Positions 1,051 to 6,172 of a stretch of DNA of 6,172 nt are shown one piece after another. Both the position numbers and the translations under genes were made by a program. Source of the DNA: a candidate division TA06 bacterium SM23_40 (GTDB taxonomy: Bacteria; LJUI01; SM1-40). Positions within the stretch are counted from its first letter, which is position 1. The number at the start of each line of letters is the position of its first letter. The DNA lies in contig LJUI01000148.1 in assembly GCA_001303705.1 (NCBI GenBank), positions 1 through 6,172 of the forward strand, given 5' to 3'. Below the pieces are notes generated by a model. It was not told the origin of the DNA. It saw only the letters and a program-made list of their open reading frames with translations, and did not search any database.

Positions 1051-1151
1051 GGCTCCCCGGGTTGGTGTCCCAGAGCGTACTTTTGTGGGATCTGTCAAGA
1101 GTTGAGATGAGGCGGGCGGCTAGGGGACATACCGAGATCAGCCTCCTCCCA
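1051..1151. repeat. Dispersed direct repeat, copy A
   Basis: It aligns without gaps to 6072-6172. The first 50 bp (1051-1100) are identical, beginning GGCTCCCCGGGTTGG. Eleven differences are spread over the remaining 51 bp. The repeat has a sharp edge at 1051: flanking bases (TCATGAA here, AAACACT at the other copy) do not match. The other edge may lie beyond the window end in copy B. It contains TTGACA on the minus strand, but no acceptable -10 box follows at 16-18 nt. It lies 453 nt upstream of the propeller start codon. Confidence 0.9.
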
Positions 1152-1242: not shown

Positions 1243-3927
1243 CTACAGCGCTCTCAGCGCATCTTCGATCCCAGCCGCAATGCGGGCATGATCATGTTCG
1301 CCCTCGAAAGCAACAGGCGCCCCGAAGATCACCTGCGCGGTGCCCCGACGGGGAATCGATTTGCCCTTCGGCAGGATCTCGAACAAGCCCCTGAGCTTGA
1401 CTGGCACCACCGGCGCAAGCATCTCTCCCGCGATCAGACCTATCCCCGGCCTGAACGGCGCGATCTCCCCCGTGATACTCCTCGTCCCCTCGGGATAGAT
1501 GAGGACAGACCAGCCATCGTCGAGTAGGTCTCCCATAAGGCTCAGGCTCTTCCGGACCGCCTCCTTCCGGCAGAAAGGAAACGCATTCATCAGGAGGGGA
1601 GCCATGACCGCCAGCCCCCTCCGGCTCCACTTCACACGTTCATTCTGGTCCGTCTCCATCCCAAAGAAGTAGTCGGCGGCTGCGGCTACTGCGACTCTTC
1701 TCCTTATACGCGAAGGAAGACTCCACAGTATCGCTGGCGTGTCGAGATGGCTCGTATGATTGGCCACGAAAATCACCGGAAGCAACAGGCGAGACAGATT
1801 CTCTCGGCCCCGGATCTGCCGACCGAGAACGGTCCTCAAGTAGACAGTGCAGAGCCTCTGGAGAATGTCTCTCGCCAGAATGGCGACTGGCGTTCTCGCC
1901 CACGAGAGTTCGGGAAACCTCACGGCGCTCTCGACAGAGCACTCGATCAGAGCCTCCAGATCGGCAACGGTTGACGCCGGGGTGAGATTGCTCTCGTCAA
2001 ATCCTATACTAAACCGTTCCTCCAGAGCCACAACGAGTTCCACCATTCGGAGAGAGTCCAATCCGAGATCGTCCACAAGCCGCGAGCCGGACTCTACCTC
2101 CCCGGGAGGAATCCGCAAGAATGTGGCGAGTAACTCCAACAACTCCGATCCGGCCTCCTTCCCGCCCCCCACTCCCGGAACATGCCTCCTTTCCGATTCC
2201 CTGCGCTCTCTCAGGGCCGCGGCTACTTCGTGCTTCTTGATCTTGAGCAGTGCAGTCTTCGGGAATTCCTCGCCCGCCCAAAAGCTCCCCGCGTGTATTC
2301 GCTGAGCTTCGCTCAGCTTCTCATTTGCTTCGCTCACTATTTCGTCGACGCTGAGGGTGCAAGACGGCTCAGGGATTACCGCCGCGTGAGTTGTCATACC
2401 TCCGTTCTCTTCAAGACCGACAACACAACTCTCCTTCACACATGGATGTCGGTCGAGGACTCTCTCGATGTCGCGGGGAAAGATATTGGCCCCTGCGGAG
2501 CTGAGTATCATCTCCTTCTTTCGCCCCACAATCGTCAGGTACCCATCGTTGTCAATATCCCCGATATCACCTGTCTTGTACCAATCCCTCTCGAACGCAT
2601 TCTTAGTGGCTCCCTCATCCTCGTAGTAGCCCGACGTAACATTCTTGCCGCGTACCAGTATCTCCCCATCATCCGCTATGCGTATTTCTTGTCCGGGCAG
2701 CGTCCTTCCTACGGTATGTGCCTTGTATCGGCGCAGCGTGTTGCAGGATACGACCGGAGAGGCCTCAGTTAGCCCATATCCCTGCAACACGCGAATCCCC
2801 AGCCTCATCCAGAAATCCTCGGTCTTCTCATCGAGCTTCGAGCCACCACATATGAAAAGCCTCAGGCTCGGACTGATGCCTCGCCTCACGGGGTAAGACA
2901 GCATTCTCGCAACCCTAAACGGAACCGCTCCCCCGACCGTCGTCAACGATCTCAGAACCCAGTACCTGCCCCTGTGACCGGCCCTCCTCCACACGCTCTC
3001 CCTCATCGCTTCCAGGAAAAGAGGAACACACACCACCGTATTGACCCGGTGTCGCCGGAAGAGCTTTCCGACATCCAATGACTTTCGTGTCTTGGTATAG
3101 ATGATGGTCGCGCCGAACCTCAGAGGATAGAACAACCCGAGAACCTGCTCTAACAGGTGACTGAGTGGCAGCATCGAAAGGAACGTATAGGATGAATCCA
3201 AAAGCATCATCCGCCTCATGGAGCGGATGTTCGATACCAGATTTCTGTTTGTGATCAGCACACCCTTGGGATCGCTCGTCGTACCCGACGTGAAGACTAT
3301 CTCGATCAGGTCATCTCCTCTTATGTCCGGCAAGTCATCCGGCGGCACAGGCTCCACATCAGCCAGGCACTCAAGCAGATCCTCGGCGAACAGCTTCTCG
3401 ATCGGACTATCTAGGATTTTCAAGGTTGAGAGAAGTATCGCCTTTGCCCTGACTCGCGCAATTATTTTTTCTGCGAACTCCGCCCGTGAGCCGAAGTCGA
3501 TGGGCACAAGCACAATCCCGGACATGAGACAACCGAAAAAACAGACGATCCAACTGGGAGAATTATATGCCCATATACAGACCCTGTCCCCCTTATCGAT
3601 ACCCCGGGAACGAAGCAACGTCACAAACCTTCTCGCGTTGTCATATATATCCTCGTATGTGAATGACTGTGTACGATAGCTGCCCTTCCAGTGGAGCGCC
3701 ACGTTATCGCCGTAGGCCCTGCGCAGAGCCTCAATGTAGTAGACAACCGTATCTTTGTCTCGGGAGTCCATCATCCTCATTCCGTCATCCGTATCTTCGT
3801 CCCCAGAGTCTATCATCCTCATTTTGTGAACCGTATCCTTATCGCGGGATCCCATCATCCTCGTGCCGTGATCGGGCTGACTCGACGATCCGAGGGCTAT
3901 GAAATGATAGTCCCTCTGGCTGCTCAT
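1243..3927 (-). CDS. Trifunctional acyl ligase - acyl carrier protein - PlsC-type acyltransferase fusion
   Basis: This 894-residue protein has three domains. Residues about 62-572 are an AMP-forming acyl ligase: P-loop TSGTTSDPKG (213-222), YGLTE (384-388), KTGD (451-454), GRKKE (468-472) and the C-terminal catalytic Lys region PKTALLKIKK (556-565). Residues about 595-662 are an acyl carrier protein with DDLGLDSL, where Ser625 would carry phosphopantetheine. Residues about 695-894 are a PlsC/LPLAT domain with NHTSHLD (723-729, the H-x4-D catalytic motif), YPEGTR (811-816) and VPVKL (841-845). The inferred role is to activate a fatty acid, load it on the in-built carrier, and transfer it to a lysophosphatidate-like acceptor at the membrane. 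E. coli Aas also joins PlsC and ligase activities, but in the opposite order and without a carrier domain. The ATG at 3927 overlaps the cdsA stop (ATGA), implying translational coupling; no good ribosome site is seen. Residues 20-61 are three 14-residue repeats and not part of the ligase fold; a start at Met50 (3780) is the alternative. The acceptor and chain length cannot be read. Confidence 0.9.
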   Translation of the reverse strand: MSSQRDYHFIALGSSSQPDHGTRMMGSRDKDTVHKMRMIDSGDEDTDDGMRMMDSRDKDTVVYYIEALRRAYGDNVALHWKGSYRTQSFTYEDIYDNARRFVTLLRSRGIDKGDRVCIWAYNSPSWIVCFFGCLMSGIVLVPIDFGSRAEFAEKIIARVRAKAILLSTLKILDSPIEKLFAEDLLECLADVEPVPPDDLPDIRGDDLIEIVFTSGTTSDPKGVLITNRNLVSNIRSMRRMMLLDSSYTFLSMLPLSHLLEQVLGLFYPLRFGATIIYTKTRKSLDVGKLFRRHRVNTVVCVPLFLEAMRESVWRRAGHRGRYWVLRSLTTVGGAVPFRVARMLSYPVRRGISPSLRLFICGGSKLDEKTEDFWMRLGIRVLQGYGLTEASPVVSCNTLRRYKAHTVGRTLPGQEIRIADDGEILVRGKNVTSGYYEDEGATKNAFERDWYKTGDIGDIDNDGYLTIVGRKKEMILSSAGANIFPRDIERVLDRHPCVKESCVVGLEENGGMTTHAAVIPEPSCTLSVDEIVSEANEKLSEAQRIHAGSFWAGEEFPKTALLKIKKHEVAAALRERRESERRHVPGVGGGKEAGSELLELLATFLRIPPGEVESGSRLVDDLGLDSLRMVELVVALEERFSIGFDESNLTPASTVADLEALIECSVESAVRFPELSWARTPVAILARDILQRLCTVYLRTVLGRQIRGRENLSRLLLPVIFVANHTSHLDTPAILWSLPSRIRRRVAVAAAADYFFGMETDQNERVKWSRRGLAVMAPLLMNAFPFCRKEAVRKSLSLMGDLLDDGWSVLIYPEGTRSITGEIAPFRPGIGLIAGEMLAPVVPVKLRGLFEILPKGKSIPRRGTAQVIFGAPVAFEGEHDHARIAAGIEDALRAL
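3747..3872 (-). repeat. Three in-frame 42-bp tandem repeats in the acyl ligase 5' end
   Basis: Units are 3747-3788, 3789-3830 and 3831-3872, each starting CCGTATC on the plus strand and containing ATCATCCTC. They are contiguous, exactly 42 bp each, and encode 14-residue units HGTRMMGSRDKDTV, HKMRMIDSGDEDTD and DGMRMMDSRDKDTV. The period is a multiple of three, so unit gain or loss keeps the frame. The units lie before the conserved ligase core, in a charged and probably disordered N-terminal extension. Confidence 0.9.
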
Positions 3928-4988
3928 GCATATAGCCAGTTGATCATATGAAAGGTGATCGGAACTGTGAAGATGAGGCTGTCGACTCGATCTATAATCC
4001 CCCCGTGCCCGGGCAGCATCGTGCCCGAGTCCTTTATCCCCATGTCCCGCTTGACCATCGAAAAGACCATATCGCCCATCAGCCCGAGAAAACCTATCAA
4101 CAGACCGAGAACCGCGGCAAAAGTATAGCTCAACCTCCCCCTCGCGAAATCGGGCATGATGGGCACAAAGGCCAGCGACAGGAGAGTGACCAACGAGGCC
4201 GTGATTATTCCAGCTCCCCACGTCTTCTTGGGGCTCACAGTCACTGCGATCTTGGTGTTCAGTAATCTGAGCAAGGAATTGCCGGGGATTCTCGCCTGAA
4301 ACGAAGCGAGACCTTTTCCCACCCAAAATGATAAGAGATCCCTCGCTTCTGTCAGAAAGAAGCAGTAGAGTAGCACCATCGCCCCCAGATTGATCATGAA
4401 CAGGCTGTGCCCGAGATTGAACACAAAGAACATGAGGCCTATGGAAATGAGCCCAATAGATCGGATGGTTCCTTCTGCCCTGTTCTGCAGGACGAAGATG
4501 ATGGGTATCAGCAAGAACGTGTAGACCGGCACGAGAATAATATACAATCCGTACTTCTGAGTGTAGGCTAGATAGCCGAGAACGAGAATAGCCAGGTGAC
4601 AGACGATCGCCGGCAATCTATCTCTCGAGATCGGATTCTTCGGGTCTCCTCCCCCGCACACTGAGAGAAGAGAGAAATACTCCCTCAATGCGAGAAAGCA
4701 GAGGAACCCCATGAAGCAAAAGGAGACGATCCTGTGCGTCGAGACCGCCACAATGAAAACCGCGGCCATCCACCACCAGGTGACTGTCCGGCTCACTATT
4801 TCGTCGGCCATGGCGGACTTCCTGGCCACCAGTATCCGGCCGATCAGACTGAAAAAGAGCAGCAGCCCGATGATGACTCCCATAACGACGAGCATGGAAT
4901 TGTTTCGTCTCTGAACCAGGATTCCCAGAGAGACGAGTATTATTCCGGCAAGTAGAATGAACCTGCCAAACCTCTTTAGCATCTTCAC
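3924..4988 (-). CDS. cdsA: Phosphatidate cytidylyltransferase (CDP-diacylglycerol synthase)
   Basis: The family makes CDP-diacylglycerol from CTP and phosphatidic acid in the cytoplasmic membrane. The CdsA signature is complete at residues 310-336: SMVKRDMGIKD, then LPGHGG (325-330), then DRVD (333-336). SPKKTWGAG (252-260) matches the usual SPKKT(W/Y)EG segment, and Asp217 in ARDLLSFWVGK matches the conserved D...GK region. Many hydrophobic segments give a polytopic protein. At 354 residues it is longer than E. coli CdsA (about 285), mainly at the N-terminus. The GTG at 4988 overlaps the stop of the upstream gene (GTGA); an ATG two codons in (4982) is the alternative start and has AGGTGA rather close in front. 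It is followed by a 4-nt overlap with the acyl ligase fusion. Its place between a head-group transferase and an acyltransferase suggests a dedicated paralog for this operon rather than the sole housekeeping enzyme, which is an inference. Confidence 0.92.
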   Translation of the reverse strand: MKMLKRFGRFILLAGIILVSLGILVQRRNNSMLVVMGVIIGLLLFFSLIGRILVARKSAMADEIVSRTVTWWWMAAVFIVAVSTHRIVSFCFMGFLCFLALREYFSLLSVCGGGDPKNPISRDRLPAIVCHLAILVLGYLAYTQKYGLYIILVPVYTFLLIPIIFVLQNRAEGTIRSIGLISIGLMFFVFNLGHSLFMINLGAMVLLYCFFLTEARDLLSFWVGKGLASFQARIPGNSLLRLLNTKIAVTVSPKKTWGAGIITASLVTLLSLAFVPIMPDFARGRLSYTFAAVLGLLIGFLGLMGDMVFSMVKRDMGIKDSGTMLPGHGGIIDRVDSLIFTVPITFHMINWLYA

Positions 4989-5623
4989 CTACCGATCCAG
5001 GTGTAGGACTTGTATTCCTCGCCTCTTGCCACTTCGAGTATCTTCGCTATTCTCCTGATGCAAGTCAACCCGACGAGGATCGAGACCCCTGCAAGATAAT
5101 GGGGCAGGTAATGAATGAAGTCGTGGTTGAAGAATGCGATGATGGCGAATAGTCCCACCCATACTGCTCTGTCAGGTTTGCCTCCGCCCAAACTCTCGTG
5201 TCTCCGCACTCCCCCGGGCAGACTCTTCCCCAGAACTCCATAGAACTCTGCCGCCCAGATCAGAATGAGAAATATCGTCAGCGACAGAGCAGGACCATCC
5301 GGCACGAAAAAGAGCACGCCATAGCAGATGGTGTCGCCGCCGATGTCGAGCGATTCGTTCCAGACCTCCCCTGCCGGGGTCGCCGTGTTGTACTCACGCG
5401 AGAGCATTCCATCCAGGGTGTTCATCGCCAGTCTCATGACGAGAAAGAGGGGCACTAGCAGCAGCACCCATCCCAGATGCTCATAGGAAAGCCCAACGTA
5501 TAAGCCCAGAGCAGCGAGGAGTATGAAGGCCACCCCAAAATACGTCGCCTGGTTGGCAGTCATCCAGGAGCCGGCCATCCAGCGAACCACTTTCTGGAAG
5601 TTACCCTTCTGTAAGTAGAGCAT
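4985..5623 (-). CDS. CDP-alcohol phosphatidyltransferase family protein, YnbA-like variant
   Basis: This 212-residue polytopic membrane protein is of the family that swaps CMP on CDP-diacylglycerol for an alcohol. The canonical motif is D-x2-D-G-x2-A-R-x8-G-x3-D-x3-D. Here it reads N68-T-L-D71-G72-M-L-S75-R76, eight residues, G85-E-V-W-N89-E-S-L-D93. Spacing is exact, but the first and third Asp are Asn and Ala is Ser. From memory, E. coli YnbA also has Asn at both Asp positions, so this looks like a real subfamily rather than decay. TANQATYFG (22-30) corresponds to the usual T-x-N-x-[IV]-T entry segment, and GGGKPDRA (146-153) resembles the GKxDR segment. The start is set by GAGGAGG five nt upstream; an in-frame stop lies just before. 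It overlaps cdsA by 4 nt. The alcohol substrate is unknown; phosphatidylglycerophosphate, inositol phosphate or another head group cannot be told apart, and reduced or altered activity is possible. Confidence 0.88.
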   Translation of the reverse strand: MLYLQKGNFQKVVRWMAGSWMTANQATYFGVAFILLAALGLYVGLSYEHLGWVLLLVPLFLVMRLAMNTLDGMLSREYNTATPAGEVWNESLDIGGDTICYGVLFFVPDGPALSLTIFLILIWAAEFYGVLGKSLPGGVRRHESLGGGKPDRAVWVGLFAIIAFFNHDFIHYLPHYLAGVSILVGLTCIRRIAKILEVARGEEYKSYTWIGR

Positions 5624-5625
5624 AT

Positions 5626-5745
5626 GCCCTCCTCATCGTTCGCCTGCTCGTTCCGCGGTGCATCCTCATTCTCAGTCCGCTTTACATCGTCCTTCTCTTT
5701 CCGCTCTCCATCGTCTTTCTCAGTATCCCTGTAGTTCTCCTTCTC
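5626..5745 (-). repeat. Five degenerate 24-bp purine-rich tandem units in the operon leader
   Basis: Units are 5722-5745, 5698-5721, 5674-5697, 5650-5673 and 5626-5649. On the minus strand each begins GAG; four begin GAGAA, and the three middle ones continue as (C/G)GATG and GCGGA. The array abuts the phosphatidyltransferase start. In one frame (from an ATG at 5781) it encodes 8-residue units EKENYRDT, EKDDGERK, EKDDVKRT, ENEDAPRN and EQANDEEG, but that frame runs out of phase into the gene and has no separate support as a protein. As RNA it would be an unstructured purine-rich tract in front of the ribosome site. Confidence 0.75.
5628..5634 (-). promoter_or_regulatory. Ribosome binding site of the phosphatidyltransferase gene
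   Basis: GAGGAGG on the minus strand ends 4 nt before the ATG at 5623. It lies inside the last 24-bp tandem unit (5626-5649), so the repeat itself supplies the Shine-Dalgarno sequence. It is the only strong ribosome site of the three-gene operon; the two following genes start at 4-nt overlaps. Confidence 0.8.
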
Positions 5746-5916: not shown

Positions 5917-5950
5917 ACAAAAAGACCCGAGCAGCTCCACCGCTCAGGTC
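5917..5950 (-). terminator. Intrinsic terminator or attenuator; hairpin element copy B
   Basis: On the minus strand GACCTGAGC pairs with GCTCGGGTC over nine positions (one T-G wobble in RNA) around the 9-nt loop GGTGGAGCT, and TTTTTGT follows directly. That is the form of a Rho-independent terminator. It lies about 295 nt upstream of the operon's first start codon and downstream of the promoter candidate. It could therefore end an upstream gene, end a short leader RNA, or attenuate the operon. The hairpin part (5924-5950) repeats at 828-854 with three changes, one of which keeps pairing (C-G versus U-G). Confidence 0.5.
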
Positions 5951-6030
5951 CAGAGTTCAGAGACACTTCCTCATACCATGCGAACAGCGGGGCAACCTCC
6001 CGTCGATCGTACTCGCCGTCACTGCCACCT

Positions 6031-6071: not shown

Positions 6072-6172
6072 GGCTCCCCGGGTTGGTGTCCCAGAGCGTA
6101 CTTTTGTGGGATCTGTCAAGAATTGAGATGAGGCGGGTCGCGAGGGGACGTACCAGGATGAGCCTTCTACCT
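6072..6172. repeat. Dispersed direct repeat, copy B (runs to the window edge)
   Basis: It is the same orientation as copy A at 1051-1151, offset by 5021 bp, with 50 identical bp at 6072-6121 and 90/101 matches overall. It ends 449 nt upstream of the phosphatidyltransferase start codon. It may continue past 6172. Both copies can also be read through on the minus strand as a similar short peptide (RSHKSTLWDTNPGS at its end), so an origin as the 3' end of a repeated gene is possible. Confidence 0.9.

Follow-up and report, generated by a model that had tools for sequence, protein, structure and literature searches.

A candidate accessory lipid operon pairing YnbA- and YnbB-type proteins with a ligase-carrier-acyltransferase fusion in a candidate division TA06 genome

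A short contig from the candidate division TA06 bacterium SM23_40 (LJUI01000148.1) raises the question of which lipid is served by three overlapping genes that encode, in this order on the minus strand, a YnbA-like membrane protein, a CdsA/YnbB-like protein, and a fusion of an AMP-ligase, an acyl carrier, and a PlsC acyltransferase (Table 1). The window analysed here is the whole contig (C116, 6172 bp), one of 189 contigs in a 2.88-Mb assembly that is about 90% complete and represents a single incomplete metagenome-assembled genome (MAG). Our preferred reading, which we hold with roughly even confidence, is that the genes form an accessory YnbA-YnbB-type lipid operon that draws its own acyl donor from a reductase-less ElbD-type fusion and makes a minor dedicated phospholipid or lipid anchor.

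An earlier sequence-only reading of this DNA had described three genes joined by two 4-nt overlaps. All open reading frames were found at the expected places and strand, and the overlaps were verified as GTGA (reverse complement of 4985-4988) and ATGA (reverse complement of 3924-3927); we count them in favour of the operon, as a sign of translational coupling of the three genes. A GTDB genome scan with a YnbA alignment yielded 251 relatives, of which the best 80 were read; in 67 of these 80 named loci a cdsA/ynbB-like gene lies directly downstream of ynbA, as it does in the window. This count, like the other locus counts given below, depends on BLAST thresholds and covers the best 80 of 251 relatives. 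Because the G+C content at third codon positions is alike across all three genes (0.67-0.69), the catalytic motifs are intact, and the ynbA-ynbB adjacency is recurrent, the operon is not a chance arrangement.

A separate housekeeping set was identified in the same assembly. It includes a second cdsA in the context frr-uppS-cdsA-dxr, a separately encoded PgsA-like protein, a gene for a phosphatidylinositol-phosphate (PIP)-synthase-like protein adjoining one that reads as a myo-inositol-phosphate synthase (L004 1420-3272), and, elsewhere, PlsY, a stand-alone PlsC, and AcpP with FabF and FabG (fabG-acpP-fabF). The names frr, uppS, dxr, myo-inositol-phosphate synthase, and those of the fab genes are what we take these genes to be from reading the sequences and from family knowledge. 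The PIP-synthase-like gene and its neighbour suggest phosphatidylinositol-type lipids in the lineage. Since housekeeping CdsA, PgsA, PIP-synthase-like, PlsY, PlsC, AcpP, and FabF proteins are all encoded apart from it, the operon is accessory. This agrees with the proposal of the sequence-only reading that the lipid operon is distinct from housekeeping synthesis, a proposal that would have fallen if these were the only cdsA and CDP-alcohol phosphatidyltransferase genes; with other copies of both in the assembly, that possibility was rejected. The description of the operon as self-contained was too strong, because it encodes neither lysophosphatidate synthesis nor AcpS: it has no glycerol-3-phosphate acyltransferase, the first acyltransferase being PlsY encoded elsewhere, and no phosphopantetheinyl transferase. 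That every reaction has a housekeeping counterpart in the assembly could also mean that the three genes are redundant housekeeping phospholipid genes with no special product, but we consider this very improbable given their distinct subfamilies (the Asn/Asn motif of YnbA and the insertion in YnbB, both described below), their linkage in an operon, and their patchy distribution across phyla.

The second gene product is a predicted CDP-diacylglycerol synthase of the CdsA/YnbB type. It matches CTP_transf_1 (PF01148) with an E value of 1.7e-39 and 136.7 bits against a cut-off of 24, and it carries the motif KRxxxxKDSGxxxPGHGGxxDRxD, which together with a PF01148 score above the cut-off was used to assign the family; the longer form SxVKRxxxxKDSGxxxPGHGGxxDRxD is common to the window protein and the solved CdsA 4q2g. 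YnbB proteins of the window's clade (L013 to L019) have in common an insertion ahead of the SPxKT motif, and the Glu that E. coli YnbB has in KTxEG is missing from them. Overproduction of E. coli YnbB raises MPIase, yet YnbB cannot replace CdsA (PMC6362211); both observations suit an enzyme with a dedicated task of its own, separate from that of CdsA. In a review, YnbB is cited as an enzyme devoted to making MPIase (PMC10881803). On these grounds the operon might instead make an MPIase-like sugar anchor, with the YnbB-like enzyme forming CDP-diacylglycerol and then sugar-PP-diacylglycerol, YnbA acting on or competing for this lipid, and the fusion supplying the chains; the altered YnbA motif would fit a non-standard acceptor or donor. 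However, the window encodes no glycosyltransferase, an E. coli ynbB knockout did not have lowered MPIase (PMC6362211), and the window protein is just 34% identical to E. coli YnbB and belongs to the subfamily with the insertion. We regard an MPIase-like product as unlikely.

The identity of the YnbA-like protein needed more than its Pfam match, as it scores 20.2-21.1 bits (E 8.7e-4 at 20.2 bits) with CDP-OH_P_transf (PF01066), under the gathering cut-off of 22, whereas E. coli YnbA passes at 39.2 bits. The assignment is rescued by the agreement of family comparison and fold. The protein is homologous to E. coli YnbA and shares with it the motif NxxDGxx[AS]R x8 GxxxNExxD, and an AlphaFold2 (AF2) model with a mean pLDDT of 86.6 matches PIP synthases and AF2299 (Foldseek probability 1.00; VIA-align Z 17.2), far above unrelated rows. 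CDP-alcohol phosphatidyltransferases are defined by the motif DxxDGxxAR(x8)GxxxDxxxD, in which the aspartates are ligands of two metals (PMC8633023). The AF2 model and its matches in the Protein Data Bank thus place the window protein in the fold of this family, shared with PIP and archaetidylinositol-phosphate synthases, but its identity to such enzymes is about 12-20% and it departs from the canonical motif: it reads N68xxDG..R76 x8 G85xxxN89xxxD93, in which Asn rather than Asp occupies two of the four defining positions. The genome's own PgsA and PIP-synthase-like proteins keep all four Asp. Asn occupies the first and third motif positions in 78 of 78 readable YnbA motifs, and every relative checked has exchanged two of four metal-binding Asp, a feature of the family that is new here. 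Among 37 aligned YnbA sequences, N68, D71, N89, E90, D93, and D97 are invariant, E90 and D97 being extra acidic residues. In MjPSS, mutation of motif Asp to Ser or Asn lowers or abolishes activity, and D62N is among the mutants not or negligibly restored by Mg2+ (PMC8633023).

The exchange of two metal-ligand Asp for Asn, together with the fixed E90 and D97, leads us to a further proposal, offered as tentative and on the doubtful side: YnbA proteins would not be conventional two-metal CDP-diacylglycerol phosphatidyltransferases but would act, together with YnbB, on some other donor or acceptor, and the operons would make a lipid class undescribed in bacteria, its chains fed by cis-acting carrier fusions.

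The third gene product matches the Pfam families AMP-binding (E 4.8e-71), PP-binding (5.7e-11), and Acyltransferase (3.4e-17), and these matches, with that of CTP_transf_1 above, bear out the ligase-carrier-acyltransferase fusion and the CdsA recognised from the letters alone. The motifs of all three domains are present: a TSGTT P-loop at 213, GYGLTE at 383, TGD, K562, the carrier DSL with Ser625, NHxxxxD at 723-729, and PEGTR at 812-816. Across six fusions aligned over their length, the ligase, carrier, and acyltransferase catalytic residues are invariant. An AF2 model of the whole fusion made with six sequences was poor (pLDDT 59) and was not used. Carriage of phosphopantetheine is supported by a relative from a Woykebacteria MAG, 39% identical, which is encoded directly behind an ACPS-type gene (PF01648, E 4e-15); the PlsC part of this relative is broken by N runs.

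The order of AMP-ligase, carrier, and PlsC-type acyltransferase is that of the C-terminal half of ElbD, the ether-lipid enzyme of Myxococcus xanthus for which ligase and carrier activity have been demonstrated in vitro (PMC9131029). An ElbD-type protein of Anaeromyxobacter, made of reductase, ligase, carrier, and acyltransferase and encoded beside genes for HAD and epimerase proteins, aligns full-length to the window fusion at 34%. The window fusion differs in lacking the N-terminal fatty-acyl reductase (FAR; NAD_binding_4) and in having ynbA-ynbB rather than HAD and epimerase genes as neighbours, and full membership of ElbD was rejected on account of the missing reductase. As ElbD-like proteins without a FAR are on record from other phyla (PMC9131029), the architecture is not new in kind. 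ElbD-like matches are likewise known from Omnitrophota and from MAGs of the FCB group (PMC11868695), and could be taken to mean that the operon makes ether lipids as ElbD does. We think this improbable: in addition to the missing domain, no ElbB- or ElbE-like gene adjoins the fusion, no clear FAR was found in the 90%-complete assembly, where matches to PF07993 are weak and the best lies in a sugar-nucleotide-dehydratase-like gene, and ElbD-like genes need not signal ether lipids (PMC11868695).

Aas also joins ATP-dependent acyl activation to a PlsC acyltransferase, re-acylating lysophospholipids delivered by LplT (PMC11416262), and in several Omnitrophota such proteins lie near ynbA-ynbB. LplT-PlsC-ligase (Aas-type) proteins were found beside or near the pair at L156, L159, and L160, and also at L020, and a PlsC-ligase protein at L158. 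If the window fusion were Aas-like, the operon might serve lysophospholipid repair, the fusion re-acylating turnover lysophospholipids and the CdsA- and YnbA-like proteins remaking or exchanging head groups. In Aas, however, PlsC precedes the ligase, the acyl carrier protein acts in trans, and LplT is often attached, while the window has no LplT and its fusion has the reverse domain order. The ligase tree places the window ligase domain with other fusions, ElbD, and long-chain ligases, apart from the separate Aas clade (branch support 100/100), and Aas membership was rejected on domain order and tree. As repair does not need CdsA and YnbA, we judge it quite unlikely.

The association with YnbA-YnbB recurs outside the window. 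Of 384 Omnitrophota genomes sampled, 17 gave a match, and in three loci of this phylum (L014, L155, and L157) a ligase-carrier-PlsC fusion lies immediately upstream of ynbA-ynbB. Recurrent coupling of this fusion to YnbA-YnbB is new here and joins two gene sets known elsewhere; a link between the architecture and YnbAB was not found in the literature searched. Together with the Aas-type proteins, these loci suggest that different protein formats may supply the same acyl-activation function beside YnbAB. Hydrolase, hexapeptide, and Methyltransf_20 genes also recur at the sampled Omnitrophota loci. A single origin of the fusion-bearing operons was rejected: the YnbA tree, which has long branches and several unsure joins, needs three label changes for the fusion, no fewer than shuffled labels do, and more than one origin of the coupling is therefore probable.

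Identity to the window protein is 57-70% for nine of the best 80 YnbA relatives, 46% for one, and at most 40% for the rest. The nine come from a Woykebacteria MAG, Pirellulales, Omnitrophota, Desulfobacterota, and a Pseudomonadota MAG. The window sequence forms a group in the YnbA tree with those of Woykebacteria and of a member of the Pirellulales (99/88); the clade around them mixes phyla, and horizontal transfer is the simplest reading. A PlsC-like gene lies near ynbA in 38 of 75 loci with room for one. One MAG of the Candidate Phyla Radiation (Woykebacteria) has both the closest YnbA (70%, L012 5080-5715) and the closest fusion (39%, L131 575-3484), each on its own contig, with N gaps; this may reflect a binning error or transfer. 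A Bdellovibrionaceae genome contains a ynbB-ynbA-ynbB-ynbA tandem (L021 8888-12325), with a degenerate motif in the last YnbA.

In the accessory operon that we favour, the AMP-ligase domain would activate a free fatty acid with ATP, and the acyl group would be loaded onto phosphopantetheine at Ser625 of the fused carrier. Transfer in cis by the PlsC domain would follow, to a lysophospholipid acceptor that is most likely the 1-acyl-glycerol-3-phosphate made by the housekeeping PlsY. The CdsA/YnbB-like enzyme would convert phosphatidate to CDP-diacylglycerol, or onward to sugar-PP-diacylglycerol as reported for E. coli YnbB, and YnbA, using its modified metal site, would move the lipid-phosphate unit to an acceptor. 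Alongside its bulk phospholipids, the cell would obtain a dedicated phospholipid or lipid anchor in minor amounts.

Several points weigh against this scheme. Its chemical steps are drawn from family knowledge, and the in vitro support for ligase and carrier is that for ElbD. The exact three-gene order of the window was not seen in any other genome sampled; relatives keep the order of ynbA and ynbB but not that of all three genes, and in the three Omnitrophota loci the fusion precedes ynbA, unlike in the window. Most of the YnbA relatives nearest to the window protein (57-70% identity) come with a stand-alone PlsC or with no PlsC at all, which would make the activation of free fatty acids dispensable for the pathway. 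For YnbA, the predicted head-group exchange has the CDP-alcohol phosphatidyltransferase fold in its favour and the loss of two of four defining Asp throughout the family against it; as Asn sits where mutations of MjPSS harm activity, standard phosphatidyl transfer cannot be assumed. The earlier suggestion of unusual fatty acids is weakened, as no direct evidence for them was found.

The ynbA-ynbB pair occurs in many bacterial phyla, E. coli included, and its ties to ligase-carrier-acyltransferase or Aas-type proteins in unrelated genomes point to a pathway that may acylate its own lipid from free fatty acid. The invariant Asn/Asn signature poses a sharp biochemical question, namely how an enzyme might function despite substitutions that are harmful in a related one. 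Surveys use ElbD-like genes as markers of ether-lipid potential, and some of the FAR-less ones may belong to YnbAB pathways.

The E. coli ynbABCD genes, for which no paper was found in the literature searched, had been described as pairing YnbA- and YnbB-type proteins similarly with a third protein that is not such a fusion, and this was borne out. The E. coli ynbA and ynbB are likewise adjacent and overlapping, YnbA is 32% identical to the window protein and has the same Asn/Asn signature, but YnbC is a hydrolase joined to Methyltransf_20 and YnbD a PAP2/DSPc protein, where the window has the fusion. The hydrolase and Methyltransf_20 genes of the Omnitrophota loci correspond to the two halves of YnbC; the window genome gave no PF12147 match in its 90%-complete assembly.

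Table 1 Features of the 6172-bp window, with the operon genes first
Feature	Position	Strand	Remarks
ynbA-like gene, membrane protein	5623-4985	minus	212 aa
cdsA/ynbB-like gene, predicted CTP:phosphatidate cytidylyltransferase	4988-3924	minus	354 aa; GTG start within the GTGA overlap
AMP-ligase/acyl-carrier/PlsC acyltransferase fusion gene	3927-1243	minus	894 aa; ATG within the ATGA overlap
Tandem repeat, 42 bp x3.0	3747-3873	minus	encodes a 14-aa repeat in the N-terminal extension of the fusion, not in relatives
Terminator-like hairpin, 13 pairs then TTTT	5923-5951	minus	ynbA leader, between D1 and ynbA
Dispersed repeat D1, 100 bp	6072-6171	minus	about 450 bp upstream of ynbA
Second copy of D1	1051-1150		about 450 bp upstream of a secreted (signal-peptide) BNR-type gene

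Rfam and tRNA scans gave no matches. Dispersed repeat D1 has five copies in the assembly, the three outside the window being at G000:C4:62883-62983, C128:8374-8456, and C128:10195-10296, in the neighbourhood of genes for secreted proteins of the beta-helix type. D1 could be an upstream region that these genes have in common, or else a mobile element; as a structured RNA it had no support (fold z-score +1.06). The right ends of contigs C116 (6072-6172) and C4 (L093 1502-1602) have an identical 101-bp overlap, so the contig break falls inside the repeat. The leader hairpin is possibly an attenuator or an upstream terminator, and a sequence that resembles it but lacks the T run is present upstream of the BNR gene, near 830-856. 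A tandem repeat of 24 bp x2.7 occupies 5661-5724, just upstream of ynbA.

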